Source of the DNA: Rugalucina vietnamica
Lineage: Eukaryota; Mollusca; Bivalvia; Lucinida; Lucinidae
Length of the DNA: 64,000 bases
Direction: 5' to 3'
Assembly (NCBI GenBank): GCA_964017185.1
Contig: OZ024874.1
Location: 55,345,356-55,409,355, forward strand
The stretch's first letter is position 1, and each line of letters opens with the position of its first letter. The notes below the pieces were generated by a model. It had not been told where the DNA came from, did no database searches, and worked only from the letters and a program-made list of their open reading frames with translations. Below are positions 4,971 through 53,417 of the stretch, piece after piece. The position numbers and the translations under genes are program-made.

Positions 4971-6371
4971 GAGCCGCATCATGAGAAACCGGTTTTTTAT
5001 ACTCGCCACATGAAAAAGTGCGGGGTATTATGTTATACCCTCCGCAAAAAATTTGCGTTCAAGTGTCCTTCCGTCCGCCCATCTGTCCGTCCGTCAGCAC
5101 TTCGTTTCCGTGCTCTAACTTGAGCATTTATTCGCCAATTTTCTTCAAACTTTGTATAGGAGTTCATATCAGGAAGGAGTGGTTTGGGATTGAAGATGGG
5201 CAAATTTCGTCAAATAGGTACAGAGTTTTGGCCCTTGATTTACGTTAAAATTTCATTTCCGGGCTCTATCTTGAGCATTTATCGACCAATTTTGTTCAAA
5301 CTTTGTATAGGAGTTCATATTAGGAAGGAGTGGTTTGGGATTGAAGATGGGTAAATTTTGTCAAATGAGTGCAGAGTTATGGCCCTTGATTTATGTTAAA
5401 ATTGCATTTCTGTGATCTATCTTGAGCATTTATTGACCAATTTTCTTCAATCTTTGTGTAGGAGTTCATATTAGAAAGGAGTGGTTTGGGATTGAAGATG
5501 GATTAATTTTCGTCAAATAAATGCAGAGTTATGGCCCTTGATTTACATCAAAATTACATTTACAGGCTCTTTCTTGAGCATTTATCGACCAATTTTCTTC
5601 AGACGTTGTATAGGAATTCATATTAGGAAGGAGTGGTTTGGGATTGAAGATGGGTAAATTTCGTCAAATAAGTAGAGTTATAGACCTTGTTTTATATTAA
5701 AATGTCATTTCCGGGCTCTATCTTGAGCACTTATTGACCAATTTTTTTCAAAGTTTGTGTAGGAGTTCATATCAGGAAAAAGTGGTTAGGGATTGAAGAT
5801 GGATAAATTTCGTCAAAACAAGTACAGAGTTATGGCCCTTGATTTACGTTAAAATGTACTTTCAGGGCTCTATCTTGATTATTTATTGACCTTTTTTTTC
5901 AAATTTTGTATGGCAGTTCATATCAGGAAGGAGTGGTTTGGGATTGACGTTGGGTAATTGTGGTCAAATAAATACAGAGTTAATGCCCTTGATTTATGTT
6001 ACAATTTCTTTTCCAGGCTCTATCTTGAGCATCTTTAGACCAGTTTGCTTCAAGCTTTGTATATGAGTTCATATCTGGAAGGTGTGGTTTGGTATTGTAG
6101 ATTAATGTCATCAAGATATTCTGTGCATTTGTACTAAATTAAATTTGCGTGGCGGGGTATCATGCATGCCTGCAGCACTTTTATTTGCCTATGCGAAAAC
6201 CAAGGAGCAGGTCAACTGCACAGCTGATCAGCACCTTTGTTTTCACTACATGGATAGCACAATCCCTCTTCTCCTTAAATCTGATATTTCAAGCTTCTAA
6301 TCACCTTCTGTGGCAGCACAGGCTACTTTGTGTCAGACCTTGTCGGAAATCCCAAAGACGCATCACAGCTC
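4971..6371 (+). mobile_element. pal-A MITE copy 4, split by another element
   Basis: Left part 4971-4997 and right part from about 6181 to 6371 are one MITE: the flanking ATTT at 4967-4970 matches ATTT at 6372-6375. The 1.18 kb between them is an inserted tandem-repeat element. Confidence 0.8.
4998..6180 (+). mobile_element. Tandem-repeat-bearing element (family E) inside pal-A copy 4
   Basis: Starts atactcgccacatg...gcggggtatt and ends gcgtggcggggtatc. After a (gtcc)-rich stretch it carries about six and a half tandem units of about 155-165 bp, each with ggagttcatatyaggaagg, ggtttgggattgaagatgg and gagttatggcccttgattta. Non-coding and non-autonomous; the structure resembles bivalve elements with central tandem arrays, possibly Helitron-related (inference). 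Confidence 0.75.
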
Positions 6372-7200: not shown

Positions 7201-8084
7201 ATATGGACAGTTCACAATTCCTGGCATTCCTATTCTCACTTTTTAACTGGTCAGCCCAAAAAAGCTTTATAAACTCAGAGGAAAAAGTTTAGTCAGTAAC
7301 TTTGACAAGCCCGATTACCATCATATCCTGCTGCTTGCCTTAGATGACCCCTTTTATTAAATTTGCAAAGCAAGTTTCTTTCTTATTTTGAAAAGAAACT
7401 CCACCAGTTGTCCATTTCGACAGAGTTATTGGCCTTTTTCATAAAACATCATTTTTGCAATTACCCGATAAATGATAAAACTGGCGCTTTGGTTAATAGC
7501 GCTTTCTGATAGAGGTTGTTGCTCGTGACAAAAGTCCGAAAAGGTCTTTTCAAAATTTAGTCACAGTCTCGAGAAATAAGATGTCAAAAATTCATTATTT
7601 TGAGATTACCTCCCTTTCATTTAAAATAAGAGCGAAAATCGGTGTATGCATTCTGGCAAAACCACACGCGATATTTCAATCTTTTTTGTTGGAAATGTTA
7701 GGTTTTATTCACAGTTTTACGACTGGTAATTTTAATCCCAAACTTTCAAGGGGGTTTGTAGCTATAGCTATTCAAACAGATCTTATGGGATTAACATGTA
7801 TTTTCTCTGACTAAACTTTTGCCGCTGAGCATACATGATCTAAGAATAATTTTTTATTCTCCAGCCTGTCTTGGTGCTTTTGAAAAGAATTTTCTTATTT
7901 TGTTGAGCACACTTTAATCAGAATTCATAAAAATGGTAATTGGGTTAGCAGCTTCTCGGTAAAAGTGATATATCTAGATGGCTACCTTGTTGGGAAAGAG
8001 CTAGTCAGCCTGCTCCTTGAATGTGTTATCGAAAAAAATGTTTTGGTATGTTTTTCGTATTTGCTCCAAAACATTGATTCTGGA

Positions 8085-8548: not shown

Positions 8549-8640
8549 TTTCCATCCAATCAGAATTTTCTTTTACAAGATCCCATCCAATCAGAATTAT
8601 CTTTCACTAGATTCCAATTCCATCCAATCAGAATTTTCTA
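8549..8640 (+). repeat. Three short direct repeats with CCAAT
   Basis: The block ccatccaatcagaattttct occurs three times with 25-40 base spacing, each carrying CCAAT. No gene start nearby, so a promoter role is not supported. 8640-9180 holds no recognised feature. Confidence 0.6.
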
Positions 8641-9181
8641 TCTTCTTTTCACCTTTACATGGAATGGTTCCTCTGGTTGCTGTGTCCCAACCAAATGTTT
8701 TCGGCTCTGAAAAAAAGGTACAGTAAATATTGAGCAGACTAAAATATTTTATTTACGCAGTACCGTGAACCAAAAGGTTTGGTTGGTTGATTTGGGGTTT
8801 AAGGTCCCACCAACAGCTAAGGTTATTTGGGGACAGGATCTCGGTTTGAAGTCTCATGCGACAGACAGGAGAAGCCTGGGATCTAACACACGACCCTGGT
8901 TTACAAGACACGCGACTTAACCACTGTGTCTGAACCAAAGGGAAGTATCAAATTTTATAATGCTCCTGTATACACCTCTAAAATGTAAGGCAGGTGAATT
9001 TGGTCACTAGTAAAATTGAAAATGCTGCCAAAAAGGTCATTAGTACTGGCATCCGGAGGTCCTCATTAATGCTGCCAAATTATGTTTACCGGTAATATCG
9101 GCCAGAGGTACAGGCACTGAGTATTCTGAATATAATGAATTTCTGTGAAACTTGCTACAGATTGGTCTATTCTTAACAAAT

Positions 9182-9410
9182 GAGCCGCCTCATGGGAAAA
9201 CCAACAATCTGCATAGGCGAAAACAAAGACGCAGATCAGCTTCGCGGTAACGGCGAAGCTGATCAGCGCCTTTGTTTTCGCTACTCGGATAGTACAATTC
9301 CTCCTCAACCCCAAAATTTCAAGCTTCTAGCCTGCTTCTGTAGCTGTACAGGCTGGTTTGTGTCGGACCTGTTCAGAAACCACATTGTTGGTTTTCCCAC
9401 GAGGCGGCTC
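9182..9410 (+). mobile_element. pal-A MITE copy 6
   Basis: Target duplication AAAT at 9178-9181 and 9411-9414; central palindrome with one mismatch (ggtaacggcg). Confidence 0.9.
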
Positions 9411-9537
9411 AAATATGTGTACGTACATAATCAGGAATGTGGTCACTCACTGGTACAGTTTCAAACTTGTGCAGGAATAACACAACAAATAACTGAATCT
9501 CCATCTGGGCAAACCACCTGGAAATGTAGGAAATATA

Positions 9538-10331: not shown

Positions 10332-10798
10332 AAATGTACCTACCTCCCAGGACACATGTACCTTCCCCCGCCAAAACCAGCAAAACCTGGACAGGTATTA
10401 ATGGTCTTATCCTGCCAACGATCCTACAAAATATAGTCAGAAATACAGATGACAGGAAAAGTACAAGCAAACAAGTGTTTTATCTGTTTAATATACAAGT
10501 AATTAATTTCTGGCAATTGTACTGCACAAAAATACATCATATCATGATAAAATCATTGGAAAGAAGTTACTGGGTAAAATAAGGAATTCTAAGAAGGGTT
10601 GATTAGTCAGAACCAAGCTACCTTATAAAGCCTGCTGTATTCCGGAACCAAGTTTACTATATATATGTACCATCAATAGCATGGTTTCGATGCACAGCGA
10701 TAAGTGTTAAGTCGAAATGTAAAATTAACTAAAAGATTGACTTCTCAATATATGCAAATAACCATATCAAGCAAACATTTACATATTTGTATACTTAC

Positions 10799-10894
10799 TG
10801 GATTATAGGTATGAGGATCTGGGAAGTAGTCAGGATTTCTGTGTGCCCAGAATGGTGATAGCATCAACATATCTCCCTGGGGTATCACATAGCC
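10799..10894 (-). CDS. CYP39A1: CYP39A1-like exon 9
   Basis: Acceptor tttgcag, donor gtaagta, 96 nt, phase 0 to 0. Encodes GYVIPQGDML, SPFWAHRNPDYFPDPHTYNP, the PERF-approach region of P450s. This is the last exon I could find. Confidence 0.85.
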
Positions 10895-13800
10895 CTGCAA
10901 ATGAGAAATGTAACAGAATATTCTTAAACAATACCAAAAGAAAAATCAGAAAATAAAGCATTATAGTGTGTTTCATCTCATAAGTTGACAACATAGAAAT
11001 ATTAACTTGTTTTGCCCACCAGTGATTTTTTTTTCTTTTTTTTTATGCTTTCAACTCTTTCATCCAAATACATGTATACATCAGAATAAGAATAGTTTAC
11101 AGGTGAAACATTGAATTGACAATACCATGTGCACCGGGTACTAAACATGCAATAAACAGACTTTTTGAGCTTCAAAAATTGAAAATTTTCAACTGATTTT
11201 TTTTATATTTTCTTATTTTGACGCAAAACATAGATTGTGGGTACACGTTAGAACCGCCTCGCCGAGGCGGTTCTAATGAGTACCCACAATCTATGTTTTG
11301 GAGCAAAAATAAGAAAAATAGGTATACCCATTCATACCCCAGTTTTGCTATATAAAAGTGGGGTTCAAGGGGGTATACATTACACGGACATGTTTTCGTG
11401 ATAATGTAGTCACTTCAGAAACATAAATATCCTCGATGATAAGCTTTATGAATAATATCACTGCTATTTGGCCTATCCTTAAATCTATCAAACTTAACAT
11501 TTATAAATGCTATGATTTAACTTCCTATCTTGAAGCGTACAAACATAACTGTTGAGGCATGATCATAAGATTTTACTGATTACTGTCCAAAATCGTGTTT
11601 GTTTGTCCTTCTTGTTTCTAGACGTTATTAGTAAGTAACACAGGCAAATTACCATCCTAGCAATAGCCAAGCAGTAGGCAATATCCAGGTGTATTATAAA
11701 GCTAACTGACTAGAAAACCAGTATGGGTGGGGGGTGGGGGTGGGGAGGAGGTGCGATGGATATACAGTGATGGAGTGACCTTGTTGCTGAATAATACATA
11801 TGCCATCAATATCAAATAATTATGGTTTGACGAAAACAAGGAGGTAAAACTGAAGTCTTTGCACACTGTGAACAACAAATCATACATTCTAACCTTTTTG
11901 TTCATACGCTTTGTATTGTTAGTGATGTTATATTTTGGAGAGATTATACCTTAACAGTGAAATCATTGACAACTCTTCTAGTTATTATCCCAACTGGGTG
12001 CATTCTGATGGCCTCTAGCACACAACATAGTAAATATGGTACCCTGTTTAAATCTTCCTCCTTCAGATTAAACTCAGAAACTGTGGGTGAAAAAAAATGT
12101 CCTGGCAACAAAAACAAATGAGCTGCATCATGAGAAAACCAACAATCAGGTTTCCGAATAGGTTTGACACAAACCCAGCTGTACAGTCACAGAAGAAGGC
12201 TAGAGGCTGGAAATTTTGGATTTGAAAGTTGGAAAGTAAAGGGACTGTACTAACTGTGTAGCGAAAACAAAGGCGCAGTAACTGCAAAGCTGATCTGTGC
12301 CTTTGGTTTCGCATATGCAGATTGTTGGTTTTCTCATGACATGGCTAAAATATTAGTAAGCAAACTCAATGTTAGTATGTTACTTCTAAAAAGGGTTTAT
12401 TCTAGACAGTTAAAAAGTACCTTAAGAGTAAACTCATTCACAACTCTTCTTGTTATAATTCCAGCAGGATGCAATCTGATGGCTTCTAAGACACAGCATT
12501 GTACATATGGTACCCTGCTTAAATCTTCCTCTGTCATGATTAACTGAGAAGCTTTGAATATAGAAACGAATTGTCCATGTAACAACAGCATACATTCAAC
12601 GATTATAACATAACACTTGTAGGAAGGCTTACATGTTAACAAATAGATTGTTGCCGTTCAACAAAGTACTTATTATACTTCGAATTTAACAAAAGCTGTG
12701 ATCTGTTTTATAAAGAGATAGTTTTCTATATAAATTTTAGAAAAATACCCATTTGGGAGCAAATACGTGGCCTGGTTATTATAAGTAAAATGAGCCGCCC
12801 CATGGGAAAACCAACAATCTGCAGAGGCGAAAACAAAGACGCAGATCAGCTTCGCGGTTACCGCGAAGCTGATCAGCGCCTTTGTTTTCGCTACTCGGAT
12901 AGTACAATTCCTCCTCTACTTAACTCCAAAATGTCAAGCTTCTTGCCTGCTTCTGTAGCTGTACAGGCAGGTTTGTGTTGGACCTGTTCAGAAACCACAT
13001 TGTTGGTTTTCCCACGAGGTGGCTCAAATGTAAAACGACAAGTAGAAGTGTAGAGACTACATGTATTTCCATTCACAACTTCAATGCCATATAATTTAAC
13101 CACATTGTAAAAATTTAGAACAATTGAGAGTGAACATTTTCAAAGTATGATATACGGGGTCTGTCCCAGAAATACGTAGACATTTGTGATAAAACAGTAA
13201 TGGGTCTGCAGAATTTCATAAAATTTATATGATCTGTTTGCATACATCTAATAAATGTTACGACCTAGCGTAACTAGACAGGTACAGCGAAAAACAACCA
13301 AGTAATTTAAACTTAACAATATTTAATCAAACAAATAAATGCTGCAAATACATACAAACAAACAAACAGATAAGTAAATAAATAAATAAATAACTTACAA
13401 AGTTAATGTCAAATAAGTCCTTGTCCCTCAAATGTAAGTCCACAATCCAATAACCAGAATATGAGCACATGTATATTTTAATCCACACTTTTCTTCTAAT
13501 CCAAAACACTAGTGAAACAACCAAAATTATATACTTTAAATCACTTCAAATTTCTGAATGCCTAAGACTGAATTGGGACCTATATTTATACATCTAAGGA
13601 AATTCTACAGGTTTCTAGAGAATGATATAATAAACTTTTCTCTAGAAAAGAAACGAACTAAACGAAAGTTCTTTTAAATTCTCCAAAGAGAATTTAGAAT
13701 TCTCCAGAGAAGAATTCAAGGCCGCAACGACCATCAAGACTAAACGAAAGTCTACTAGATCCTTCGAGATCTCAGTAGTAGTATACATAGTCCAAATATA

Positions 13801-16800
13801 TTTTTAACTTATGGTAAAAAAAAAAACACTCACTCCATTTTCATCTGGAATTATCCACAAAGTGCTCATAGAATTTTCTATACTTCTAAATTATAAAACA
13901 GTTATAAAAATAATCAATGACATTCTTCTATAAAGTTCTAGATAATAAATTGTAGAAACATAAAAAGAAATATATATTAATCAAGGTTACTCCCCTTTGA
14001 TTATATATATAAATAAATTATAAGTAATAGCTTTAAAAAGAATCAATATTATTGAATCAATTATATATAACACTTCCCCTCTTCAATGAAAAGAAAGTTT
14101 TATGAAATAAAACTTTCTTTTGCAATACACATATGCAAACATACAAGGCAAAACTGTCAAGCTCTTGAAAGGGTGTCTGGAATTATATTATCTCTACCTT
14201 TTATGTGTCTAATGTCAAGATTGTGCTCTTGCAACATGAGACTTATGCTCTAGCTGATACTCAGATGGAGTCTATTTTTCAGATTAACAGTGTAAATAGA
14301 GCTGAAACACTTTTAAGTATGGCCCAAACTGAACAAAAAACTCTGACAAGCCTTATTCCAAACATACCTGACCTTCTTATCATAAAGTAAGTTTGTCAAA
14401 GGCTCAGCTAAAACTGAAACATTATTACAGAACTTTCTGTAATATCCAGCCATACCCAAAAAGCGCATCAGTTGCCATTTTCCTGTAGGTACAGGAAAAT
14501 CTGATATAGCCTCAACTTTGGCTTCTACAGGTCTGACCTGACCTTGTCCAACAATATGTCCTAGAAATGTCAAACTAGCATGGCAAAATTCACTTTTCGG
14601 TAAGTTTATTGTCAGTTTAGCATCACTGAGTCTTTTGAAGAATTCTCTGATGATCTCCAGGTGTTGTTTCCACTCTTCACTGTAGATGATGGCATCGTCG
14701 ATGTAAGCTTTACACCCATCCAGACCGAAAATCAAACTATTAACCAAGCGCTGAAATGTTGCTGGAGAGTTTTTCATGCCAAAAGGCATCACTTTATATT
14801 GATAAAGTCCATCAGGAGTAACAAATGCCGAGATCTCCTTTGCTCTGTCTGTAAGTGGAATCTGCCAAAACCCTTTCAAAAGATCGAATTTCGTCACATA
14901 TTTGGCGTGACCAATGTTGTCGATGCAGTCATCAATTCTTGGTATGGGAAATGTGTCAGTTTTTGTGACAGAATTTACTTTTCTATAGTCTGTGCACATT
15001 CGAAATGTCCCATCAGATTTTGGCACAAGTATACAAGGAGAACTCCATTCACTTTGACTAGGTTCTATAAAGTCATTGTCCAGCAAATACTTAACTTCTT
15101 TCCTGAGATATTGTTGTCTTTCAGGATGAAGTCTATACGGATGTTGTTTCACCGGTTTTGCTCCTTCAATAATGTCTACATCATGGTAGATTTTATCGGT
15201 TCTGGATGGAATGTCCGGAAATAAGTGCTCATATTCAAGAATTAATTGTTTAAGTTCATGTTTCTTGTCCGGATCTAGATGTGACAGTTTCTGATCGAGG
15301 TCATGCAGAATGTCAGAATTCTGGAGTTTTGAGGATAATGGTTCACAGTTCACAGAGTTCATTTCTTCAAAGTCTGTCTGATTTTGTTCATGAGGGACAG
15401 AATTAACTATGCTTACTGAGGAAATAACTGAACTATCATTATCACTATCCCTATCAATGTACTTTTTAAGCATGTTAATGTGACATAATTGTTTTTGCTT
15501 GCGCCTCCCAGGAGTGTTAACAATGTAATTTACATCACTTAACTTTTTCTCAACAGTATATGGACCATAATATCTAGCTTGTAATGGCCTGCCAGGAATG
15601 GGCAAAAGAGCAATCACCTTGTCTCCAGGGTCAAAATTTCTGTTCTGAGCATTTTCATCAAAATGCAACTTCATTTTGCTCTGAGCTGACTTAAGATTGG
15701 ACCGAGCAACTTCCCAAGCTTTTGTCAATCTAGTTTTGAAGTCAGACACATACTGAAGTAAGTTCAAAGGACTGTCATTACTTGAAAGAAACTTCTCTTT
15801 CATAAGTTTTAAAGGTCCACGAACAGTGTGTCCGAAAACAAGTTCAAACGGACTGAACCCAAGAGACTCTTGTACTGACTCTCTGACAGCAAATAATAGC
15901 AAATGTATGCCTTCATCCCAATCTTTTTCGGTGTCAAAGCAGTAAGATCTGATCATGTTCTTCAAAGTTTGATGGAATCTTTCTAAGGCACCTTGGCTTT
16001 CAGGGTGGTAAGCCGATGACTTGTATTGCTTAATTCCAAGTTCGTACATGACTTGCTGAAAAATTCCTGACATAAAATTTGAACCCTGATCTGATTGGAC
16101 TGACTTTGGAAGACCTACAAGTGTGAAAAACTTCACAAGTGCCTTAACTATTGTTTTCGTCTTGATATTCCTGAGTGGAATTGCTTCAGGAAAACGTGTT
16201 GAAGCACACATTATAGTCAAGAGATATTGACAACCTGATTTAGTCTTGGGTAACGGACCTACACAGTCAATGATAATCCTACTAAATGGTTCATCAAATG
16301 CAGGAATAGGCTGTAAATTAGCTTTTGGAATAGACTGATTAGGTTTTCCTACCATTTGACAAGTGTGACAGGATTTGCAATGTTGTGAAACATCAGATTT
16401 TAATCCTGGCCAGTAGAAATGCTTGAGAATTTTATGATAAGTCTTATTTATCCCTAAATGACCTGACATGGGAGTTTCATGGGCCAAGTTTAAGATTTCA
16501 GGACGATAAGCCTTAGGAACCACAATTTGGTGATTTATGGTCCATTCGTCTTCCGCTGAAACATCAGGAGGACGCCATTTTCTCATTAAGATGTCATTTT
16601 TGACATAAAAACAAACAGGAACCTGAGAAATTTCATTTTCATCTAAAGCCCTTTCAAATAAAGGCGAGATTTCAGGATCACTGTGCTGTTCTTGACAAAG
16701 TTGTGACCTTGACATTTGGTCGTGACCTTGGTCAAAAATTGAAGGTGAAAGGTCATTGTCTGACCTTTGATTGTTGAAGTCAGTTTGACTTGGAGAAAGA

Positions 16801-19800
16801 GATTTTGAAATCTCATCATGAAAAGACTGACCTATAAAAGTGTCAGTTAAGTCAATATCCTGTATCCCATCATTCAATTTGACTTTCTTTGCCATAGCCC
16901 TTGTAACGGCACATGAAGGGTAAAGATCAGGAATTTCCTGCTCAATGGGATCAGGCAATTGATCCTCACAAGGTGTATTGGTCAAAAGTGGGTTTACCAC
17001 AACCTTATCTCCGGCTAAGTCATTGCCTAATAGCAAGTGAACACCTTTAAAAGGTAAAGAAGGCCTAATACCTACAGCCACAGGACCAGAAACTAAGTCT
17101 GAAGACAAATAAATGTTATGGAGCGGTACATTAACAAATCCACACTCTACTCCCTGAATAAGGACACTTGTCCCAGTTGAAGTCTTCTCGGAAAAAGGCA
17201 AGGTATCTGCTAAAATAAGAGACTGAGAAGCTCCGGTATCTCGTAAGATTTTAATAGGGGTAGACTGGGCAGAATCACTAGTAAGTGACACAAAACCTTC
17301 TGATAAGAATGGTTCATAAATCTCCATAATACAATCAGTCGCAGACGTTTTGGCCAAAATAGGATTTTCATCCTGAATAATCGACTGTGGTTTTGACCTT
17401 AAAGAAGTAAGACCTGTTGGTCTAGAATTATTTTGATTTTGTCTCTCTTTTCTTCTTTTCAAAGTTTCACATTCAGAAATGACGTGACCGTCACCTTTAC
17501 AATAATTGCAAAACAGCCGGGGTGAGTATGAGGATCTTTGACCTTTGTTTTCACTAGTATCTTTATTTTTAGGATTATGTGAAGGACTGGAACTATCAGC
17601 TGTTAGTCCAGCTTGTGGTTCAAGGTTGTGGATTAGGTTGAGGAGAATTATTTCTCTGTTGAGGGTTAAATGGTTTTGACTGAGGTGTATTAGGTTTAAA
17701 TTGAGGGTTAAAAGGTTTCTTGTAAGGCTTATTTACAAAAGACACCTTATGAGTCAAAGCATAATCATCAGCTAATCGTGCTGCTACATCTAAAGTTTCT
17801 ACTTCCCTTTCGTCAAGAAAAGATTTGACATCAGAGTGTATGCATCGTTTGAACTCTTCAACAAGCATGAGCTGTCTTAATTTTGCATGATCAGACTTTA
17901 CATCCTTTGAAGAACACCACCTATCAAATAATTGCTCCTTAGTTCTAGCAAATTCTACATGGGTTTGATCATGTTCTTTCCTACAATTTCTGAATTTCTG
18001 CCTATAAGCTTCAGGTACTAATTCATAAGCCTTAAGAATCAGATTTTTGACTGTGTCATAATCTGAACTTTGATCAAGTGGAAGCTGAGTGTGAATTTCT
18101 CGAGCTTTACCAATAACAACACTCTGTAGAAGCAAGGTCCAATGCTCTTTTGGCCATTTTAAATTTTCTGCTACCTTCTCAAAATGTAAAAAGTACTTGT
18201 CTACCTCTTTTTCTTGAAATGGAGGAACGAGCCTGATATGCTTTGTAACATCAAATACTTTACTAGGATCAAAAGACACAGGAGGCATTGATTTACTGCT
18301 TAATTCAAGCTCTTTCATTTTAATATCATAATGCATTCTTTCTTTTTCAAGTTCTATTTCTTTTAACATTTCTCTGTGTTTTTCCTTCTCTCGTTCTTCC
18401 ATTTCCCTTTGTTTTTCTTTCTCTCTTTCTTCCATTTCTCTTTGTTTTTCTTTCTGTCTTTCTTCCATTTCTCTTTGTTTTTCTCTTTCCCTTTCTTCAA
18501 ATGCTAACTTTTCTTTTTGCATTCTTTCTTCCCTTTCTTCCTTATCTGCCCTTCTTTTTTCTTCAAATTCTAATCTTAATTTTTCCAATTCAAGATGCCT
18601 TTTTAATTCTAACTCTTTCAGCTGTATGTCGGTTTGTGAGACCATAATTAGAGATGTAGCTGAGGGTTCAAAAAATTCCTCATCAACAAGAAACTGAATG
18701 ATAACATTCTTAATTTCACGTTTTAACATAGATGTTTTGACATCAGGTATGCTATAATGACTAGCAATGTCTAAAAGATCACTCTTTTTGGCCAAGTTTA
18801 ACAGCTCTTGAGAAGGCGCAGCAATGAAATCTCCAAGTTTGAATGACATGGTTGCTTTTTGCTGGTATGACAAACAATAAATATCTTTTCAAATTCAGAA
18901 TAAAATAGGTGCACAAAATGTTCAATCCCGACTCAGAGCCCCCAAAATCTGTTACGACCTAGCGTAACTAGACAGGTACAGCGAAAAACAACCAAGTAAT
19001 TTAAACTTAACAATATTTAATCAAACAAATAAATGCTGCAAATACATACAAACAAACAAACAGATAAGTAAATAAATAAATATATAACTTACAAAGTTAA
19101 TGTCAAATAAGTCCTTGTCCCTCAAATGTAAGTCCACAATCCAATAACCAGAATATGAGCACATGTATATTTTAATCCACACTTTTCTTCTAATCCAAAA
19201 CACTAGTGAAACAACCAAAATTATATACTTTAAATCACTTCAAATTTCTGAATGCCTAAGACTGAATTGGGACCTATATTTATACATCTAAGGAAATTCT
19301 ACAGGTTTCTAGAGAATGATATAATAAACTTTTCTCTAGAAAAGAAACGAACTAAACGAAAGTTCTTTTAAATTCTTTTGGAGAATTTAGAATTCTCCAG
19401 AGAAGAATTCAAGGCCGCAACGACCATCAAGACTAAACGAAAGTCTACTAGATCCTTCGGGATCTCAGTAGTAGTATACATAGTCCAAATATATTTTTAA
19501 CTTATGGTAAAAAAAAAACACTCACTCCATTTTCATCTGGAATTATCCACAAAGTGCTCATAGAATTTTCTATACTTCTAAATTATAAAACAGTTATAAA
19601 AATAATCAATGACATTTTTCTATAAAGTTCTAGATAATAAATTGTAGAAACATAAAAAGAAATATATATTAATCAAGGTTACTCCCCTTTGATTATATAT
19701 ATAAATAAATTATAAGTAATAGCTTTAAAAAGAATCAATATTATTGAATCAATTATATATAACATAAACATTTCGTACAAATATGGATGAATTCACCCCT

Positions 19801-22800
19801 TACACAACAGATTTATATGCATTTATTCTAAGAGGGGTAGGTGTCTACGGCGCACGTCAAAAACGCTGTTTTGAAATTCATCAAGATCAAATTCAACAGT
19901 TCCTGTAATTGCGAATTTAGGTGATATTACACAATTCTAACTTTCAGTTGCACAAGTAATTATGTAAGATAAGTTTTTGAAAATTTGAAATAATTTCCAC
20001 CATCAGCGTTGATTTTATAGAAATATTCTTAAACCTACGGCAATTATTTTATTGGAAAATAATGACGTAATGTAAGTTTTGCGGCGCAAAATTAGACCTC
20101 GGCAAGCTTTTCTTTCCAGTTAAGTATATTTAACAAAATAAATTTATAAAATCAACCTCCTATTGTGTCATTAATAATCCTGTGATGATTCTGAATGCAT
20201 TTTTTCTTTAAATATTCTAAATGCTCGCTTCGTGTTGTCATTTTAAACAAGCAACATTTTTTGTTTTATTTCAGTCTAAATTAAAATTAGTGTTCCCTCA
20301 TATAAAATGAAACTGATCATGCTATTTTTTTCTACTTATCATTTATAACTCAAATTATTGACTATAATTTTGATTAAGAAGACTTAATCAATGCTTAGAT
20401 GACAATATTCATCACCATTACGGCTCTAATAAAGAGACTGCACACAAAACATTCAACCACCCCTCCACAAAAACGTAGCAAAATGATTTTCAGCGTGCTC
20501 CGTAAACGCGGATACACGATCATATAAATCTCCATAACTTTTGTAATTTGTAAGCGATTGGACTAATATTTTCATAGATTGCTCAGTACAAATGTAGTTT
20601 AAAAGCATGAACGTATCCTTAAGTTTCAAGGAACCGTTCACGAAATATCAGACATTTTTATGATTTCCCGGGACAGACCTCGTACATAGCTACCTGTTCC
20701 AAAATTTTTGAATTGTTGCCTCAAATCATTTTCTAGTTTTGCCTTCACTTTGGGATGTCCAAGGATAAGCATCAATGTCCAGGCTGTTATCTATAATTAT
20801 TAAATGACTATTATTATGACATAAACGTGAAATATCAATGTCACAAACAGTGTGTGACTGGCCCAAATCAAGCATGTTTATAAACGTGCGTATACCATGA
20901 AATATGAAGGTTATGAAATGCATTAATGATTTTGCAATATTTCCTCTTTTTTGGTTTAGTTAAACAATAGTGATACAGCTTGATTTTGCCATTCATTAAC
21001 ATTTACAAGGTCCTAAAGGAGTGTTGAAAACTTTGGGCTTCACACTTTTAACTATTTTCCTGAGACCTTAGGAGTTTCGCGAATGTCAGTGAACAGAAAA
21101 CATGTTTGATGCCCCTTACTGTGATATTGTCACAAAGCAAAGAAAGAAAGACATTATCGATGCTTTTGGCAGGTTTAAATCAACCTAGCCTGTACCGCAT
21201 AAAGATGTAATGAGCAATCAGCTTTTTAGCTCACCTGAGCCAAAGGCTCACAAGGTGAGCTTATAGGATGGCCATGCTCCGTCATCCGTCCGTCGCCGTC
21301 GTCGTCATCCGTCGTCGTCGTCCGTCCACAATTTCAAAGATCTTCTCCTCTGAAACCGCTTGGCCAATCAAAGCCAAACTTCATGTGCAGTATCCTTATG
21401 AAAGGGGAACGAAAGTTTATATAATTAAATGGTCCAGGTCACATGACCAAGATGGCCGCCATGGCTATAAATAGCAAAAACCTTTAAAAATCTTCTTCTC
21501 CAGAACCAGTGGGCCGATTCCACGAAACTTGGTATGTAGCATCTGGGACGCGGGCACATCATAGTTAAAATAAATCATGACCCTAGGATGCCCTTGACCT
21601 ATTTTACGGCAAGGTCAACTTAGATCACCAATGCATTTGAATGGGAAAAAATGGTAAAATGCTATTTAATGGGTAAAACTTACTGGGAATAGGCAAATTA
21701 ATGGACAGAAGATTAATGTTAATGGAAAATTTTAGCCCCTGGGGGGTTGTCTGCCCCTGTCCCGGGGCTATATACATGTATATGACCATAATATTCAAAC
21801 ATCTTCTTTGAAACCACTAGGCCAATCGAAGCCAAACTTCATGTGGAGCATCCTTGGGAAGGGGGAATGAAAGTTTATATAAATGGTCAAGGTCACATGA
21901 CCAAGATGGCCACCATGGCTATAAATAGCAAAAACGTTTAAAAATCTTCTTCTTCAGAACCAGAAGGCCTATGATTTTGAAACTTGGTGTGAAGCATCTG
22001 GGAATGGAGGCTTATGGAGCTCTACAAAGTTTATATAAATCATGACCCTGGGATGACCTTGACCTATTTTACGGCAAGGTCAACTTAGGTCTCCCATGCA
22101 TTGGAATGGGAACAAATAGGAAAATGTAATTAAATGGCAGAAAACTTGCTAGAAATGAGCAAATGGACAGAAGATTTATGTTTAAGAAAATATTTTGGGC
22201 CCAGGGGGTTGTTTGCCCCTGCCCCGGAGCTATATACATGTAGATGACCATAATATTCAAACAGCTTTTTCTCAGAAACTGCTTAGCCAATCAAAGCCAA
22301 ACTTTATGTAGAGCATCCTTAGGAACAGGAAATGAAAGTTTATATAAATGGTCAAGGTCACATGACCAAAATGGCCGCCATGGCTATAAATAGCAAAAAT
22401 GTTTAAAAATCGTCTTCTTCAGAACCAGAAGGCCTATGATGTTGAAACTTGGCATGAAGCATTAAGGAACAGAGGTCTACAAAATTTGTATAAATCATGA
22501 CACCGGGATGACCTTGACCTATTTCATGGCAAGGTCAACTTAGATCGCCCATGCATTTGAATGGAGAAAATTGTTAAAATGTCATTTGAAGGACAAAACT
22601 TGCAGTTAATTGGCAAATGGACTGAATTTTTATGATTTGAAAAAGACATTGACTCCAGGCGTTATTCTGACCCTGCCCTAGGGTTATATACATGCATTGT
22701 ACCATTCTTGTCTAACAAGTTTCTTGGTACATGTTTATATCTCAGGTCTCAGGTGAGCGTTTACAGGACCATTGGTCCTCTGGTTTTTATTTTTGATGGT

Positions 22801-25800
22801 TTAGGTCCAGGAATACAATACAATTTAAAATCCCAACCAAGACACCAATTCTGTACAATACTTACAGGTATTGCATTAGCCAGTGACGCCCAGAGCAGCA
22901 ACATACCATAGTTAGGAGCACACGACTTGTCAACGTTGGACAGCATAGCCTCAAGAAGACTCTGAAATACAATAATACCAGAAAAAATTGTTTACCATCA
23001 TAATTGCTCTGATAGATGAGTTGCCATGGTCATAAAACTCTATTTGAAAAGTTACAGCACAACAACACCACAGTGGCTGATATAGCTTTTAACGAAACAT
23101 TAATTCTATAAATGAGCCACATCATGAGAAAACCAACAATCTGCATATGCGAAAACAAAGGCGCAACTGAGCAGCCCCTTTGATTTCGCTACACGCATAG
23201 TACAATTCCTCTGCTTTCTTAATCCAAAATTTCCAGTCTTTAGCCATCTTCTGTGCTGGTACAGCTTAGTTTGTGTTGAACCTGTTTGGAAACCACATTG
23301 TTGGTTTTCTCATGATGTGGCTCATTAATGTTCAAAACTCAAGACATTCAGCATCATTCCAAAGCAAATGTTTGTGCGTCTAAATATGAAGAAAATTTTG
23401 TTTATTTGTAGTGTGGCAGTCCCAGACAACAATTTTTTTAGTCATGTTGGGATGGAGTCCCCACTTTTAGGGTCTGTACTAATATTATAGGGAGTTAATG
23501 TGTCATGCACAAGGGCCTGTGGGGACCAAACCCAGGATGACAGTCCTCTTACACTCCATCAGGAAAACACGTCCGTGAAATGTATCCTCCCTTAAACCCC
23601 ACTTTTATATAGTAAAACTGAGGTTTACAGGGGTATACCTATTTTTCTTATTTTTGGTCCAAAACATAGATTGTGGGTATTCATTAGAAATGCCTCGCAA
23701 AGGTGGGTACTCGTTAGAAATGCCTCGCCAAGGCGGTTCTAACGTGACCCACAATCAATGTTTTTAGCAACAATATTAAAAATATCAAACTTTTTCCAAT
23801 GAAATTTTCAATTTCTGCACCTGAAAAGAATCTCTGTATATTGCATGAGAAGTTTTCGTAATGCTACCATTAATGATGATGTGTGACGTCAAGTGATCTT
23901 GTATCTACCTGTTGGTCAGGTGACTTTTTCAATTTCAGTTTTTCAGCAGCAATTCTTTGAAACATCGTGAGAAGATAATCCTTGGCTGAGGCCCAGTCCT
24001 TGAGGCACCAAGCTGGGAGCCGGGCACCGTACTCAAACTGGTCATCATAGGTCACAAACTGTCGAACCAACTTGGGAAATTCTTTCTGTAAAATGATGTT
24101 ATACTAAGACATTTTCAATAAATTATTAATGTGCCAGAGGGACTTTTGATTTTTATAGAAATACATGTATAATGAATGTTGAATGGTATTTATCTTCTTT
24201 TTTCATCTTTAAATGTACACTGTATTATGCAGACAGTAAGCAGTGAACGGATACTGCAAAAGTTGTGCCTAATTTAAATGTTTACTTTAAGTTGCAAGAA
24301 AGCTAAAAATGAGCACCATTCACTGATTAATTTTCATGACAGACACTCTGTTCATGAGCATAAGCTCTGAGTCATTCTGAAATACCAGAGGACCAATGGT
24401 CCTGTAAACGCTCACCTGAGATCTGCTGCATATACCAATAAACATGTTTGAATATTATGGTATTTAACTCCAGTGCAGGGGCATTTTAACAGTTTTCCCA
24501 ATTCAAATGCATAGGCAACCCATGTTGACCTTGCCATAAACTTGGTCAAGGTCATCACAGGGTCATGATTTATATATACATTGGAGTACTTTAGCCATCG
24601 ATGCTTCACGCCAAGTTTCCTTGAAATCAGTCTATTGGTTTCAGAGAAGAAGATTTTTGATGGGTTTTTACCATATATGGGCATGGCGGCCATCTTTGTC
24701 ATGTGACCTAGATTATTTATATACACATTGATTCCTCGATTCTCGATTCTATAGATGCTTCACATAAAATTTGGCTTTGATTGGCCAAGCGATTTCAGAG
24801 GAGAAGAGGTTTGAATATATATTATGGAAATATACATGTATATTGCCCCGGGGTGGGGGCACATGAGCCCCTGGGGTCCAATTTTTTTCAGAATCATTAA
24901 TTTTCAGTCCTACTTCCCAAATCCTGCAAGACTTTCACTTTAAATTACATTTTAAAAATTTTCCCCATTCAAATGCATTCGCGACCTATGTTGACCTTGC
25001 CGTAAAATAGGTCAAGGTCATGAAAAGGTCATGAATTATATACACATTGTAGTGCTTGAGCCATCAATACTTCATGCCAAGTTTTGTTGAAATCGGTCCA
25101 CCGGTTCTGGAGAAGAAGATTTTTGAAGGGTTTTTACCATATATGGGCATGGCGGCCATCTTGGTCATATGACCTGGATTATTTATATACACATTGGTTC
25201 CCCCTTCCCATAGATTCTTCATGTAAAATTTGGCTTTGATTGGCCAAGCGGTTTCAGAGAAGAAGATGTTTGAATATTATGATAATATACATGTATATTG
25301 CCCCGGGGTGGGGGCGGATGAGCCCCTGGTGCCCAATTTTTTTCAGAATCATTAATATTCAGTCCTACTGCTCATTTTCTGCAAGATTTTTCCTTTAAAT
25401 GACAATTTAACAATTTTTCCCATTCAAATGCAAAGGTGACCTATGTTGACCTTGCCGTAAAATAGGTCAAGGTCACCGCAAGGTCATGATTTATATACAC
25501 ATTGTAGTACTTGAGTCATCGATGCTTCATGCCATGTTTGGTTGAAATCGGTCCAGTAGTTCCGGAGAAGAAGATTTTTGAAGGGTTTTTACCATATATG
25601 GGCATGGCGGCCATCTTGGTCATGTGACCTGGATTATTTATATACACATTGGTTCCTCCTTCCCATAGATGCTTCATGTAAAATTTGGCTTTGATTGGCC
25701 AAGCGGTTTCAGAGAAGAAGATCTTTGAAAATGGTGGACGACGGACGGACGGACGCCGGATCATGGCCATCCTATAAGCTCACCTTGTGAGCCTGACGGC

Positions 25801-28800
25801 TCAGGTGAGCTAAAAATGCTCTGAGATAAAATGCTCAATGTCGAGAAAATCTTTGCTTCTTCCATTGCATCCACAGTTATGAAAATGACAGCATCAAAAT
25901 GTTATGACTGCACTAAAACTCTGGTGCCAGTTGCTAGCTTAACATAATTGTTAAGACTTCAACTGGCTAAGTAAATGCCGACTACATAAGCAAAGGATTC
26001 TCACATTTTATCAACAAAAAATAACAGTGTATTTGTAATATTCATGCTTGAAATTTTAAAGAATCATTATCTAACGACATCATTAATTTTGAACAAAAAC
26101 ACTACCTTATCTGATACTGGTAGGACATCATGACCAAATAGATTGTTCATCACAGAGGCATACATTGTCTCTCGGACAGAGGGAAACAGGTCAATCGTTC
26201 CTGAAAAGCCATTAAAGGAAAAAAGGAAAAATAAAATATGTATAAGAAAAAAATTGGAATTTTTATTGTAGAATAGAAACATATGAACTGTATCATGAGA
26301 AAACCAAAATTTTGCATAATGCCAAAACAAAGTTGCAGATCAGCACCTTCGTTTTTGTTAAAAAGGTAGTACAATTCCTCTTTAAGTGAAATTGAAAATT
26401 TCAAGCTTCTATCCTTCTTCTGAGACTGTGCAGGTCTGACAGTTTCTGTCAAACCTGGATGGAAACGCTGAAGACCAGTTTTCCAACATCACAGCTCATA
26501 CTGTAACAGCCTTTGATCTGTCTAACAAACAGATGAGCCTGTGCATGAGAAAACCAACAATTTGCATAGGCGAAAACAAAGCCGCAGATCAGCTTCGCGG
26601 TAACCGCGAAGCTGATCAGCACCTTTGTTTTCGCTACACGGATAGTACAATCCCTCTTCTACTTAAATCCAAAATTTCAAGCCTCTAACCATCTTCTGTG
26701 ACTGTACAGACCGGTTTGTGTCAGACCTGGCCGGAAACCCAAATTGTTGGTTTTCTCATGCACAGGCTCAGATCAAGGTTAACATTGCACATTAAGATCA
26801 GACAGATCTGCATCTTTTCAAAGCATTTAAATGTGTTGATACAAAATTAGTACTTTCTGTATAGCAAATCTTCAGGAGTCCATATCTTCATATGAGCCAA
26901 ATCATGAGAAAACCAGATTTTTGCATATGCGAAAACAAAGGTGCAGATCAGCTGTGCAGTTGCTGTTTTCGCTACTCAGATAGTACAATTCCTCTTCTAC
27001 TGATAGCCAATATTTCAAGCCTCTAGCCTGCTTCTGTGACTGTACAGACTGGTTTGTGTTGGACCTGGTCGGAAACCAAAATTGTTGGTTGTCTCATGCA
27101 CAGGCTCATACATATCGTTTCCACTTTTGAGTCCTGGAAATAATCAGTCAGCCAAGTAGTTAATGAACACAGTTATATTTTTTTCAAAGTTCATAATTTT
27201 AATGTCATATTTGCTCGTTTAGTTGCCATGTATATGCCTTACCATCAGTTAGCCTATCTAACTGTGTATTAAATTCTAAACAGAGACTCTCCATAATTGG
27301 TGGTAGTTTGGCTGATGCCAACTTTCCCTTCACAATGTCATGTAATACTGTATGGTACTTGAAGAAATTTTCTTGGCTTATGGATCCTGCCAAAGAAAGA
27401 AAAATGTGCCTTTTACACGAACTCAAAGCTTTATAATAATGTATGTATTTTACCGCTGGATGCATTTAAAGGCACTATACAACAAGATGCTGATCTGTCT
27501 ATGTTCCACAGTTACCACGGTATGCACCAGTTATTTATATCCATGACGCCCCAGTCCCGGGTGAGGGTGATGGATAGCCATGGAAATGAGTGGAGTTTTT
27601 ACCTTCTTATTGTCCCCACAGTACAGGAGAATTACCCGAGGTTTGCCCTATAAAAACCGCAGTGCAATAAAAACTTAGCAGACAGTGAGTGAAATTAGCA
27701 GGTTTTTTTACCAAATAAGACAGTGTTCCAGCAGTGTGGAGCTTTTACACTGGGTGCTTCCTTGGTCCCGATATAAAAAGGTTTTGTTTGACTTTTTGGT
27801 ACCAGATTTTTTTCTACTATGTTAACAGAGTAAATCTCCACAAAACAGAGTCGGCAATAGCATTAATTTCACAATTTTTATCACTTCTTAACGAATCAAA
27901 TAAAAACTTATTATGAAATTGCATACAATGCACTATTTTATGACTTGAAATTCTTTCAATGACGTCATAAATGAGAATCAAATCAAATCATTGACCAAAT
28001 TCTAGGAATTATTGTAGAAAAAAATCTGGTATCAGGATCAAACAAAACCAAATCCTATTGGGACCTATAGTCAAAATCAAACAAAACCTTTTTATATCGG
28101 GACGAATGAAGCACCCAGTGTTTTAGCAGGGGTTTGATTTTAGAAAAGCCAAAGTCCCCACTATTCCCCAGGACTTCAATGGGCCGTGGTTACAAAATTT
28201 AATGACTGGTGCATAATGCCTTTGTTCTTTTTGCATATCTGTAAAACAGCCTTAAAAACTTTGATGGTATTCTCAAAGCACATATTATATAATTCTTCAC
28301 TGTGAAGTGCAGCACTAGCTTACCAGTATTGGCCTCACTGCTAAAGATATTATCAGTGTATTATCAAGTTGTGGAAAGATTACAAACATATCTGCAATGG
28401 TCATAATGTTTATAGTCAATATCAGTATTAAATGAACACAGTGAGTCACTAACCGACTTTCATGACGGCATCTTGAACACCATGCTGGAAGTCCACATCG
28501 CTTGAGTTGAAGAAATAACCAAAATCATCAGGATCTGTTAGAAAAGTAAGCCTCTCACCAGCAACACATAGTGTGAATATGGAACCAAGCTGGAATAGCA
28601 ATATCAAGAACAACACATGTACATAAATGACTTTTGCATATGTTTTTACCTCAGGAGCAATTGTTGTAAGCAACTTGGCCTTGACAAGCAATGTATTTAT
28701 TGCAGCAGTGGCATGCACGATGTTGATCCCTACTTGAAACCAATTGGGTACAGAGAAATAATGCCCTTTGCTTTGTTGCACAGGATCTGCAATCAAGACT

Positions 28801-49920: not shown

Positions 49921-51054
49921 CTACAACATTTTCAGTACTTTCTTTTTTCCTTGGAACCCTGACATTGATGTTTTTACAGCTTCAGCATAGTTCTCAAATG
50001 GGATTAAATCACTTGCTGGTGGACTAAGTTTCCCTTGCTTAATCAAGTCACAAATTTCATTAAACATCTTGTCCTTCTCAGGATTACCCATGTTGTCTTT
50101 ATTCCACTGAGAGTTCCAGTAGCCTACTGCTTTCACTTCTTTAAAGATAAAAACACCTGTGGGAACTGTAACTGGCTTTCTAGACATGCCTCCATATGTT
50201 ACCATTACACCTTTTTGTCCAAGATTTCGAAGAAGTTCAGTAGCACTTTTGCCACCTACACCATTAAATGCCAGCAATGGAGGTTTCTTCAAACTTTTCA
50301 TAAATTCTTTCATACCAGCTGATGCAACAAAGTCTTCAGTTAGCACATGAGTTGCGCCTAGATCTTTCAGTTCCTTAATTAATGTTTCAGTATCATCTCT
50401 TGCCCTGATAATATTAATGGTATCAATATTCCAAGCATTTGCAATTTGGATAACACTTTGTCCTACAGCACTGTTGGCTGAATTTTGAATAACTGAATCT
50501 CCAGGCCTCAATGACACAAAGTCTTTCAGCATCCTATATGCAGTGCATGGGTTTACAGCAATAGTTGCTGCCCCAAGAGCTGGTATGTCATTTGGAATTT
50601 TACGGAAAAAATCTGCGTCACCAACTGCATAAGTTCTCCAAGTACCAAATCCTGCATCCCCTGGTATAACCCAATCACCCAGTTTCAATGTTTTAACATC
50701 TTGACCAACATCTATCACCTCACCAACCCCTTCATTTCCTACAACTGCTGGCAGTTTAGGTTTGAGAAAGTATGTTCCTTCAATCATATTAATATCTGAA
50801 GGATTTATAGGTGCCATCAACATTTTAATGAGAATATCATTGTTTCCAAGTCTTGGAAGAGGGGTCCTTTGAATTTGGAGCACTTTGTTTGGGTCTCCAT
50901 ATTGACTATAAAGCACTGACAGCGATTCTGTTGGTGTGGAATAGTATCTACAGTTTCTTGTCTTGAGTATACGTGTATCTATTTGGAATATATGCCTTTT
51001 AATCTGGCGTGAAACATGTTTGAAAAACACCATTTTTGACAAGTCTACTTTCAC
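49921..51054 (-). CDS. MECR: MECR, mitochondrial trans-2-enoyl-[ACP]/CoA reductase, single exon
   Basis: A 377-residue open frame, full family length. It catalyses the NADPH-dependent last step of mitochondrial fatty-acid synthesis (family knowledge), in the medium-chain dehydrogenase/reductase fold. Residues about 1-40 are Arg/Lys-rich with no acidic residue between about 8 and 25, then RYYSTP, a typical mitochondrial presequence end. INPSDINMIEGTYFLKPKLP carries the expected catalytic Tyr (Y95), and GNEGVGEV and GDWVIPGDAGFGTWRTYAV follow. The cofactor site is QNSANSAVGQSVIQIAN and the C-terminal part has TYGGMSRKPVTVPTG. Met8 is an alternative start. It has no introns, unlike every other gene here and the vertebrate gene, which suggests a retrocopy or intron loss. 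The frame is intact, so probably functional. Confidence 0.95.
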   Translation of the reverse strand: MKVDLSKMVFFKHVSRQIKRHIFQIDTRILKTRNCRYYSTPTESLSVLYSQYGDPNKVLQIQRTPLPRLGNNDILIKMLMAPINPSDINMIEGTYFLKPKLPAVVGNEGVGEVIDVGQDVKTLKLGDWVIPGDAGFGTWRTYAVGDADFFRKIPNDIPALGAATIAVNPCTAYRMLKDFVSLRPGDSVIQNSANSAVGQSVIQIANAWNIDTINIIRARDDTETLIKELKDLGATHVLTEDFVASAGMKEFMKSLKKPPLLAFNGVGGKSATELLRNLGQKGVMVTYGGMSRKPVTVPTGVFIFKEVKAVGYWNSQWNKDNMGNPEKDKMFNEICDLIKQGKLSPPASDLIPFENYAEAVKTSMSGFQGKKKVLKML

Positions 51055-51145
51055 TTTTTGAGGTAGATAACAGAAGGTATCCGATTAAGATCATAGTCAT
51101 TGAAATGCTTTTTAACCAATTGGCTATCGTCTTGATTATCGTGTT

Positions 51146-53170
51146 AGATCAGAATCAGAATCAGAATAGTTTACTGGTGACACGCCAAATGACATTATTT
51201 CACCAGGGGGTTCGGATGGGGGGGGGGGGGAATTAGTCCCTTGAACGCACGAGTGAAGCGAACTTGGACACACAATCATCTGACATTTCAGCAGTAGAAA
51301 ACAGAGAGTCAGGGAGGTCATTCCAGTCCCTGATAGTCTGGGGAAAGAAACTACATTTATAGGTCTCTATACTAGCAGATGGAAGCTGAAATGCATTGGA
51401 GTGGCTATTTCTACAACGCCTAGTCTTTGTGATAAGGTCATCTGTAGGTATTCTGGCTTTACCCTTCAGACCTTTGTATAGTAATATAAGTCGATTATCC
51501 GTCCTCCTTTTCTTGAGAGATTCCCATCTGAGTTGTTCAAGAATGCCAGTCATACTACCTTCCTCGAAAGTATAATTCCTAGTTACAAATCTAGCGGCAC
51601 GATTCTGAACCTTCTCCAATTCCTCCTGGAGGCATTTAGTATGAGGATCCCAAACAGAACTTCCATATTCCAGGACTGGGCGCACCAGTCCTTTATAAGC
51701 TGCTTCTTTAACATCTTGGGGGCAAGAAAATAAGTTTCTCCTCAAGAATCCAAGTGTTCTGTTGGCTTTAGTACAGATATTATTGATATTCACCTTTTTG
51801 CATTATCCGCTGGTTCCCAGCTTTAAAAAATCAATATTGGAAATACAGGTAACCAGAACCCCCCTGAGGGGGGGTTTCTGGTTACCTGTTTTTCCAATAT
51901 TGATTTTTTTCAGCAGGTAACCAGCCGATAATGCAAAAATGGTGAATGGGTATTCCACTTGAGGTCATTTGTAATTGTTACACCTAGATATTTAATGCTA
52001 TCAACATTTTCCAAAACCGTTCCCTCGAGGGTGTACGAGGCCTCAATTTTATTTATCCGCTTATTTGTCAGCTGCATCATGTTGCATTTGACAGGTTGAA
52101 ATCTCATGCCCCATTTTCGGGCCCAGCTCCCTAAAAGGTCAATGTCTTTCTGAAGTTTCAATGTATCTTCTACTGTTTTAATTTCACGGTAACAAACACA
52201 GTCATCAGCAAAAAGCCTGATTTGAGAGTCAATGCCAACGGGTATGTCATTTATGTACAAGGAGAACAACAATGGACCGAGAACGGTGCCCTGAGGGACA
52301 CCAGACACAACAGCGGCCCAGTCAGATTTAACACCATTAACTACTACCCTTTGCTGCCTGAAGCACAAAATAGCATTTATCCATTCCAATGTCTTTCCAC
52401 CTATACCATAACTAAACAATTTGCTTTTAAGAAGTTCATGTGGAGGGGTGTCAAAAGCTTTTTCAAAGTCCAAAATAAAAGTGTCAACCTGACCCTTTTT
52501 GTCCAATATTTTTGCCCAATCATTTATCACTGTAATTAACTGAGTTTCACAACTATGCCATTTCCTGAATGCATGCTGTTTGTCCGACAAAAGATTATAC
52601 TGGTCAAGATGACCCATGATATTTGAGCAGACAATATGTTCTAGAAGTTTGCAAGGAATACAAGTCAAAGAAACTGGGCGGTAATTACAAGCAAGGGACC
52701 TGTCACCTTTCTTGAAAAGTGGACAAATATTAGCAAGTGACCATTCCTTGGGGATTTCACCCGTATTGATTGACTGCTGGAAGAGATGTGCAAATACAGG
52801 TCCTAATTCTTTTGCCAGTTCTTTAAGGACTCTAGGATGGAGTTCATCAGGTCCTAAGGCTTTAGATGGGTTCAGACCTTTAAGGAGTTTTGTTACTCCT
52901 TCCTTTGTTACAACAATTTCATCCATGAATGGGGCCGACCTATCCAGAAGTGGGACTTGGTTGTGTACCGTTTTGGTAAATACATCTGTGAACTGTCCAT
53001 TAAATTCTTCTGCTTTTTCGAAATCTGATTGAGCAATACCACTTCCATTTTTCTTTTTCAAAGGGGGAATGCCTTGAGTATCTTTCCTCTGACTATTGAT
53101 ATACCTATAAAAATCCCTGGGATTAGCCTCAATGTAGATAAAAAATGTACGACTCATTTCGCTACCCAAT
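51146..53170 (-). mobile_element. 5'-truncated CR1/Jockey-type LINE with a MITE inside
   Basis: Minus-strand reverse transcriptase remnant: PLFKKGDRSLACNYRPVSLT, DFEKAFDTPPHE, SGVPQGTVLGPLLFSLYIND and RLFADDCVCYR are visible upstream of position 51948; the C-terminal NNICTKANRTLGFLRRNLF and AYKGLVRPVLEYGSSVWDP lie below 51787. No endonuclease domain: the element begins around IEANPRDFYRYINSQRKD. Its 3' end has a tail of three gattct units (51146-51168). It stops about 90 bases from the MECR start codon. The catalytic FADD is intact; the HAFRKWHS segment departs from the usual QHGFRxGRS. Confidence 0.85.
51787..51947. mobile_element. pal-N MITE inserted in the LINE
   Basis: Inverted ends attcaccttttttgcattat-like and ataatgcaaaaatggtgaat. 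Inner palindrome of aatcaatattgg...caggtaaccagaaccccc and the inverse. Removing it rejoins WNTH and INNIC of the LINE frame, leaving an AT dinucleotide duplication. Confidence 0.85.
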
Positions 53171-53319
53171 TTCCGATAAATACAAAATACGTGTACACTG
53201 AAATCACTAGAAAATTTTAGGTATTGTAATATGAAATAAAGGCACGCTGTCTTATCTGCAAACACACACAGCAAACCTTACGCTAGAAACTTTTGTTGAT
53301 AAACCTGCTCCCTGATTCA

Positions 53320-53417
53320 CCATTTTTGCATTATCTAATGGTTTCCATCTTCCTGAAATCAAGAACGGGAATCGAAACTCCCGGGGATTATTGATTTTCA
53401 TCGGGGGTTTGGTTAAA
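53320..53417. mobile_element. pal-N MITE, left half
   Basis: gattcaccatttttgcatta followed by tctaatggtttcc and an inner part with ttgattttcatcgggggttt; the other end is replaced by the (GGTA)n array. Confidence 0.6.

Follow-up and report, generated by a model that had tools for sequence, protein, structure and literature searches.

According to PMC7434440, exons of coq-2 are spliced in a mutually exclusive manner in helminths, annelids and molluscs; exons 6a and 6e are two internal alternative exons that remodel the core of the enzyme, a prenyltransferase, and the switch is tied to rhodoquinone synthesis. The same paper calls exon-swap control of enzyme active sites rare, with CYP4F3 singled out as the foremost other example (PMC7434440). 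In human CYP4F3, mutually exclusive splicing of exons 3 and 4 (CYP4F3A/B) within one P450 gene is described, and the isoforms differ in substrate preference (PMC7434440, PMC3022543). Among bivalve enzyme genes, that of oyster alternative oxidase (AOX) has its exon 10 duplicated in tandem, and the choice between the copies is reported to depend on stress (PMC5589949). OGDH exons 4a and 4b form a duplicated pair with a size-restricted intron in between, in which distant branch points are described as causing exclusion and preventing transposon insertions (PMC7969005).

We analyzed a window of 64,000 nucleotides from the lucinid bivalve Rugalucina vietnamica, in which a gene that we call CYP39-type carries two neighbouring versions of one internal exon, 8 and 8b. 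The pair resembles that of coq-2 in its arrangement, and its two copies are less diverged than those of the coq-2-like pair found in the same genome. The CYP4F3 switch is reported to have experimental support (PMC7434440, PMC3022543) and concerns another P450 family and other exons; the CYP39 pair is seen in sequence. In oyster AOX, the duplicated exon is terminal and carries the stop codon, and the mRNA of one variant has both copies, so that strict exclusion or frame enforcement of the CYP39 kind is not seen there (PMC5589949). In contrast to the OGDH intron described in PMC7969005, the intron between 8 and 8b holds a MITE-like element.

Exon-swap control is already known in CYP4F3, in mollusc COQ2 and, for a terminal exon, in oyster AOX; a CYP39 case would add to these. 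A limited search of open-licence PMC papers returned, among the matches listed, no report of an exon switch in CYP39, in agreement with the remark in a first-pass annotation of this DNA that no such switch was described for CYP39A1. If the pair is what we propose, it would be an independent P450 case in a mollusc sterol-clan enzyme and would point to tandem exon duplication as a repeated route to P450 tuning. If 8b is dead, the pair is an ordinary decaying duplicate.

Anatomy of the CYP39-type gene and of its exon pair

A complete gene with 12 coding exons was found on the minus strand, from 29643 to 8638 of the window. All of its introns start with GT and end with AG, their phases are compatible, and the spliced product has 477 amino acids whether exon 8 or exon 8b is used. 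The exons, and the two MITE-like elements next to the pair, have the following window positions.

29422 to 29643, minus strand: coding exon 1, with the start ATG; the P450 match begins at residue 48
28454 to 28589, minus strand: exon 2, placed by the gene model and by a genome protein match
27243 to 27386, minus strand: exon 3, placed by the gene model and by a genome protein match
26106 to 26200, minus strand: exon 4, placed by the gene model and by a genome protein match
23909 to 24085, minus strand: exon 5, placed by the gene model and by a genome protein match
22866 to 22961, minus strand: exon 6, with the I-helix motif ASLANA, common to Capitella CYP39B1
20694 to 20790, minus strand: exon 7, leaving in phase 1
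12788 to 13029, plus strand: MITE-like element of intron 7, in opposite orientation to the copy at 12116 to 12350
12421 to 12551, minus strand: exon 8, 131 nt, residues 323-366, with EAIR as its ExxR motif
12116 to 12350, minus strand: MITE-like element (approximate edges) in the 340-nt intron that separates 8 from 8b
11950 to 12080, minus strand: exon 8b, 131 nt, the homologous alternative to exon 8
10799 to 10894, minus strand: exon 9, entering in phase 0
10344 to 10423, minus strand: exon 10, with the heme loop GFGGGRYMCPG
9427 to 9517, minus strand: exon 11, with inverted MITE-like copies on both sides
8638 to 8706, minus strand: exon 12, including the stop codon

The Pfam p450 profile matched residues 48-470 of the product with 167.2 bits when exon 8 was used and 169.8 bits when 8b was used (cut-off 22.8); putting 8b in the place of exon 8 did not reduce the score. 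P450 motifs were present in the form of EAIR (ExxR) at 345, the meander YNPDR at 396 and the cysteine-bearing heme loop GFGGGRYMCPG at 414. The usual I-helix motif of P450s is [A/G]GX[D/E]T[T/S], and ASLANA, at 283, stands in its place here. Among solved structures, the best matches were two CYP7A1 sequences (3.5e-34 and 3.6e-34), with sterol 14-alpha-demethylase chains close behind (6.1e-33). We call the gene a CYP39-type P450, that is, CYP7-clan and sterol hydroxylase-like, because its motifs agree with those of Capitella CYP39B1 in the table of PMC4229089: the I-helix hexapeptide is identical (at 283 here vs 282 in CYP39B1), ExxR lies at 345 vs 347, the meander is YNPDR at 396 vs FKPDR at 398, and the heme loop is GFGGGRYMCPG at 414 vs PFGGGRFQCPG at 419. 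An exon duplication is, by contrast, not mentioned for CYP39B1 in the available text of PMC4229089, from which the string "alternative splic" is absent. The product may have oxysterol 7-alpha-hydroxylase activity.

The assembly searched comprises 47 contigs and 1.09 Gb; contig C17 has 35 Mb and C18 81 kb, and the chromosomes probably number 17. The search yielded no second CYP39 gene, since protein matches elsewhere reached at most 34% identity among those listed (89 of 134 candidates were scored), and 8 and 8b can therefore not be polarised by a paralog from the same genome.

Exons 8 and 8b are adjacent and have AG/GT borders, with entry in phase 1 and exit in phase 0. Of their 131 bases, 105 are identical, as are 31 of the 44 encoded residues; the local alignment score is 174.5, and none of 200 shuffles scored above 40. 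The gene model confirmed the coordinates, the 131-nt lengths, the GT-AG borders, the common phase and the 44-residue products claimed in the first-pass annotation. Its further claim, that including both exons or skipping both breaks the frame, was also borne out: translation stops after residue 371, inside 8b, when both are included and after residue 343 when both are skipped.

The 300-nt flanks downstream of the two exons were without homology (97 of 200 shuffles scored as high), and the upstream flanks gave a weak match that begins in transposon ends (3 of 200 shuffles as high). By blastn (E 0.01), the window contained no second full copy of any of the gene's other exons, and the one further match spanned 16 nt. 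At the DNA level, 8b as a query against the whole genome returned nothing beyond itself and exon 8. An assembly artefact was ruled out, as the copies differ at 20% of their bases and the contig is chromosome-scale (72 Mb). No relative turned up in a collection of prokaryote contigs scanned with the 133-aa C-terminal part or in one of virus contigs scanned with the 477-aa 8b form, as expected there.

A tandem exon pair was also found in a COQ2-like gene of the same genome (C7:41303500-41313499, reverse strand, exons at 5121-5251 and 7491-7621 of that segment). Its exons match the CYP39 pair in phase and in length (131 nt each), 23 of 44 residues are alike, synonymous sites are saturated, and 2239 nt lie between them. 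Neighbouring exons of this gene matched the UbiA profile with 43.2 and 28.2 bits; of the paired exons taken singly, one reached 24.8 bits, below the cut-off, and the other was without a match at E 0.001. We take this UbiA-type gene to be COQ2, in part on the basis of its motifs. The CYP39 pair has the anatomy of this COQ2-like pair but is younger or more constrained.

Selection and splice sites of exons 8 and 8b

We propose that exon 8 was tandem-duplicated in a single-copy CYP39-type gene and that selection keeps both copies, so that one or the other would be used in each productive mRNA. Both exons would be spliced in vivo, the choice between them would be regulated, and mRNAs with both or neither would undergo nonsense-mediated decay. 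The resulting isoforms would differ before helix K and by A352V, with modest tuning of substrate, partner or stability. This mutually exclusive reading is the best supported because of the intact gene, the borders, the phase, the frame stops and the substitution pattern, and we consider it quite probable that the pair is of this kind and kept by selection. The lack of homology between the downstream flanks and the COQ2-like pair of the same genome, whose type is reported to be mutually exclusive in molluscs (PMC7434440), also speak for it. Where the first-pass annotation spoke of frame-enforced mutually exclusive exons, the anatomy, frame and substitution pattern support it; the splicing itself we infer.

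Twenty-four codons differ between 8 and 8b, 13 by replacement and 11 synonymously. The NG86 method gave dN 0.139 and dS 0.670, the latter resting on the 11 synonymous codons. Divergence was simulated (2000 runs) along two branches, the first constrained at omega 0.1 and the second neutral with stops allowed. A stop-free outcome with 13 or fewer amino-acid changes was obtained in 16.8% of runs at dS 0.35, 1.25% at 0.5, 0.15% at 0.64 and none at 0.8 and 1.0; with omega 0.2 on both branches, it was obtained in 36.5% to 99.9% of runs. Codons 19-44, which cover helix K and the expected SRS5, contain 4 replacement vs 11 synonymous codons. When they were simulated separately (constrained branch omega 0.05, 4000 runs, at most 4 changes and no stop), the neutral share was 7.2% at dS 0.3, 1.2% at 0.4, 0.45% at 0.5 and 0 from 0.67 on. 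In this within-genome comparison of the pair, purifying selection on both exons would have support if dS is at least 0.5 and weak support if it is 0.35.

In codons 1-18, all 9 changed codons are replacements and synonymous changes number 0. The split between codons 1-18 and 19-44 gave Fisher P values of 0.0012 (synonymous sites, rounded) and 0.0006 (codon classes), with a cut point picked post hoc. The pattern in codons 1-18 fits relaxed or diversifying change before helix K. Gene conversion or hidden nucleotide constraint may lie behind the synonymous split.

Splice sites were scored with small matrices made from the gene's own 10 constitutive acceptors and 10 donors. The acceptors of exon 8 (0.8) and 8b (-1.2) both scored below all constitutive ones (1.7 to 12.5), that of 8b being the lowest of the 12 in the gene. 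The donor of exon 8 was mid-range (6.2) and that of 8b (2.8) was again the lowest of 12. The exon 8 acceptor ends in AAG, and the pyrimidine contents of the two exon-8 acceptor tracts, 0.71 and 0.76, are ordinary. In-frame alternative AGs are present at -21 and -42 of the 8b acceptor, and about 36 nt separate 8b from a MITE end on its upstream side. Weak splice sites such as these would suit regulated exons and also decay.

The open frame, the intact borders, the undiminished P450 profile score and the 4 replacement vs 11 synonymous codons of the helix K-SRS5 half all argue against 8b being a tandem duplicate that is unused, now or always, and heading to decay, with exon 8 alone serving the enzyme. 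We regard this explanation as unlikely but give it a real, if small, chance: no acceptor or donor in the gene scores lower than those of 8b, whose acceptor is also close to a MITE end, the uniform replacements in codons 1-18 are as under relaxed selection, the simulation is compatible with a decaying 8b if the true dS is about 0.35, and a recently silenced 8b would have the same appearance. Because few sites lie behind dS, the substitution test counts against old neutrality of 8b and not against recent silencing; an 8b that has long been decaying appears unlikely.

The reverse case, with 8b as the working exon and exon 8 as a fading copy, is highly improbable. The 8b form scores 2.6 bits above the other in Pfam p450 and the exon 8 acceptor, with its AAG end, falls below all 10 constitutive acceptors, but exon 8 outscores 8b at both donor and acceptor, its frame is open, and the substitution evidence is symmetric between the copies. 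Dosage control, in which double inclusion would create a target of nonsense-mediated decay and so reduce CYP39 expression, with the difference in protein being of little consequence, draws on the stop that double inclusion puts inside 8b and on a 340-nt intron probably long enough for splicing, but a pure poison exon needs no single-use frame, while codons 19-44 of 8b look constrained, and we give this account very little credence.

Isoform differences and inverted MITE-like elements

The residues replaced between the isoforms are 323, 325-329, 334, 339, 340, 349 (L/M), 352 (A/V), 362 (E/D) and 365 (L/V), and the ExxR motif, EAIR, occupies residues 345-348. Nine replacements precede the cysteine pair 341-342, L349M lies in helix K and A352V in the expected SRS5, and E362D and L365V are conservative and follow SRS5. 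From P450 topology, we take the residues ahead of the cysteine pair to be the J-J' region. Residue 352 aligns with an alanine in the ESLRLSSASLNIR stretch of CYP7A1, which, again from topology, is presumably where SRS5 sits. The first-pass annotation described this stretch as leading into SRS5; the exon itself contains the expected SRS5 stretch, and 12 of the 13 replacements lie outside it.

A switch of sterol specificity, also suggested there, can point to A352V as one replacement in the expected SRS5, but 9 of the 13 lie upstream of helix K. Judged by these positions, the choice of 8 or 8b may change substrate specificity, but this is not the most evident consequence; an effect on partner binding or on stability is just as possible.

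Bivalve CYP39A1 has been linked in PMC13401447 to symbiont sterol supply in the bacteriocytes of a deep-sea mussel, and two CYP39 isoforms would be testable in such a symbiont-sterol setting. In the most far-reaching version of the proposal, one bivalve CYP39 gene would give two sterol hydroxylases through an exon swap over J', helix K and SRS5. These would serve two sterol pools, for example sterols from food or symbionts and endogenous oxysterols, and the choice would be biased by a stem of inverted MITEs looping out exon 8. To this combination we allow a slender chance.

The MITE-like insert takes up about 235 nt of the 340-nt intron between 8 and 8b, so that this intron would have been near 100 nt before the insertion. 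Steric exclusion between 8 and 8b today is unlikely because the intron is now 340 nt long. The inserted copy is 14% diverged from the window consensus (JC distance 0.156). The MITE-like element is abundant in the window, with 21 copies of 190 nt or more (e.g. 12788-13029 and 9178-9414) that deviate from their consensus at 5% to 21% of sites. It is about 240 nt long, contains an inner palindrome and ends in inverted repeats of about 31-34 nt.

An inverted copy lies 237 nt upstream of exon 8. In a 1-kb fold, the element on one side of exon 8 formed 190 pairs with that on the other, and their co-fold gave -272.8 vs -132.3 and -79.6 for the elements singly. Exon 11, which is without sign of an alternative, is also closely flanked by an inverted pair, with 103 pairs between the elements, and for 6 of 13 exons the closest copy on one side is inverted relative to the closest on the other. 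The stem is not specific to exon 8, because exon 11 is likewise flanked, 6 of 13 exons have inverted nearest copies and the window holds 21 copies; as an exon switch it was set aside and remains a lead only.

Other features of the window and genome

Several other features were observed in the window.

14316 to 18888, minus strand, in intron 7: two long overlapping ORFs (422 and 1139 residues), oriented as the CYP39-type gene
49924 to 51084, minus strand: intronless ORF whose 370 residues from the chosen Met match MECR (mitochondrial 2-enoyl thioester reductase), with 1zsy as the best solved structure (6.6e-110)
51236 to 53277, minus strand: open frames of a putative repeat element
53255 to 54787: long tandem repeat that gives YLPT repeats when read on the minus strand

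The ORFs in intron 7 presumably are gag and pol of a Gypsy-type retrotransposon, and we take the frames at 51236-53277 to be reverse-transcriptase-like and from a non-LTR element. The MECR-like ORF would be a gene without introns or else a retrocopy that is still intact.

Among P450 matches in the genome, 71 of the 93 scored lay in single open frames of at least 450 residues, by a count by eye of the listing, which suggests that intronless P450 genes are common; this listing favours intronless genes, because scoring covered the best 92 of 411 candidates and intron-bearing genes match exon by exon. The mitochondrial contig (C47, 30.7 kb) contains repeated coding-like blocks and a COX2 frame with extra inner segments, as judged by eye. 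In the 20 kb of it that were translated, the recognised genes (by eye; COX1 by profile) lie on one strand and read in the invertebrate code.
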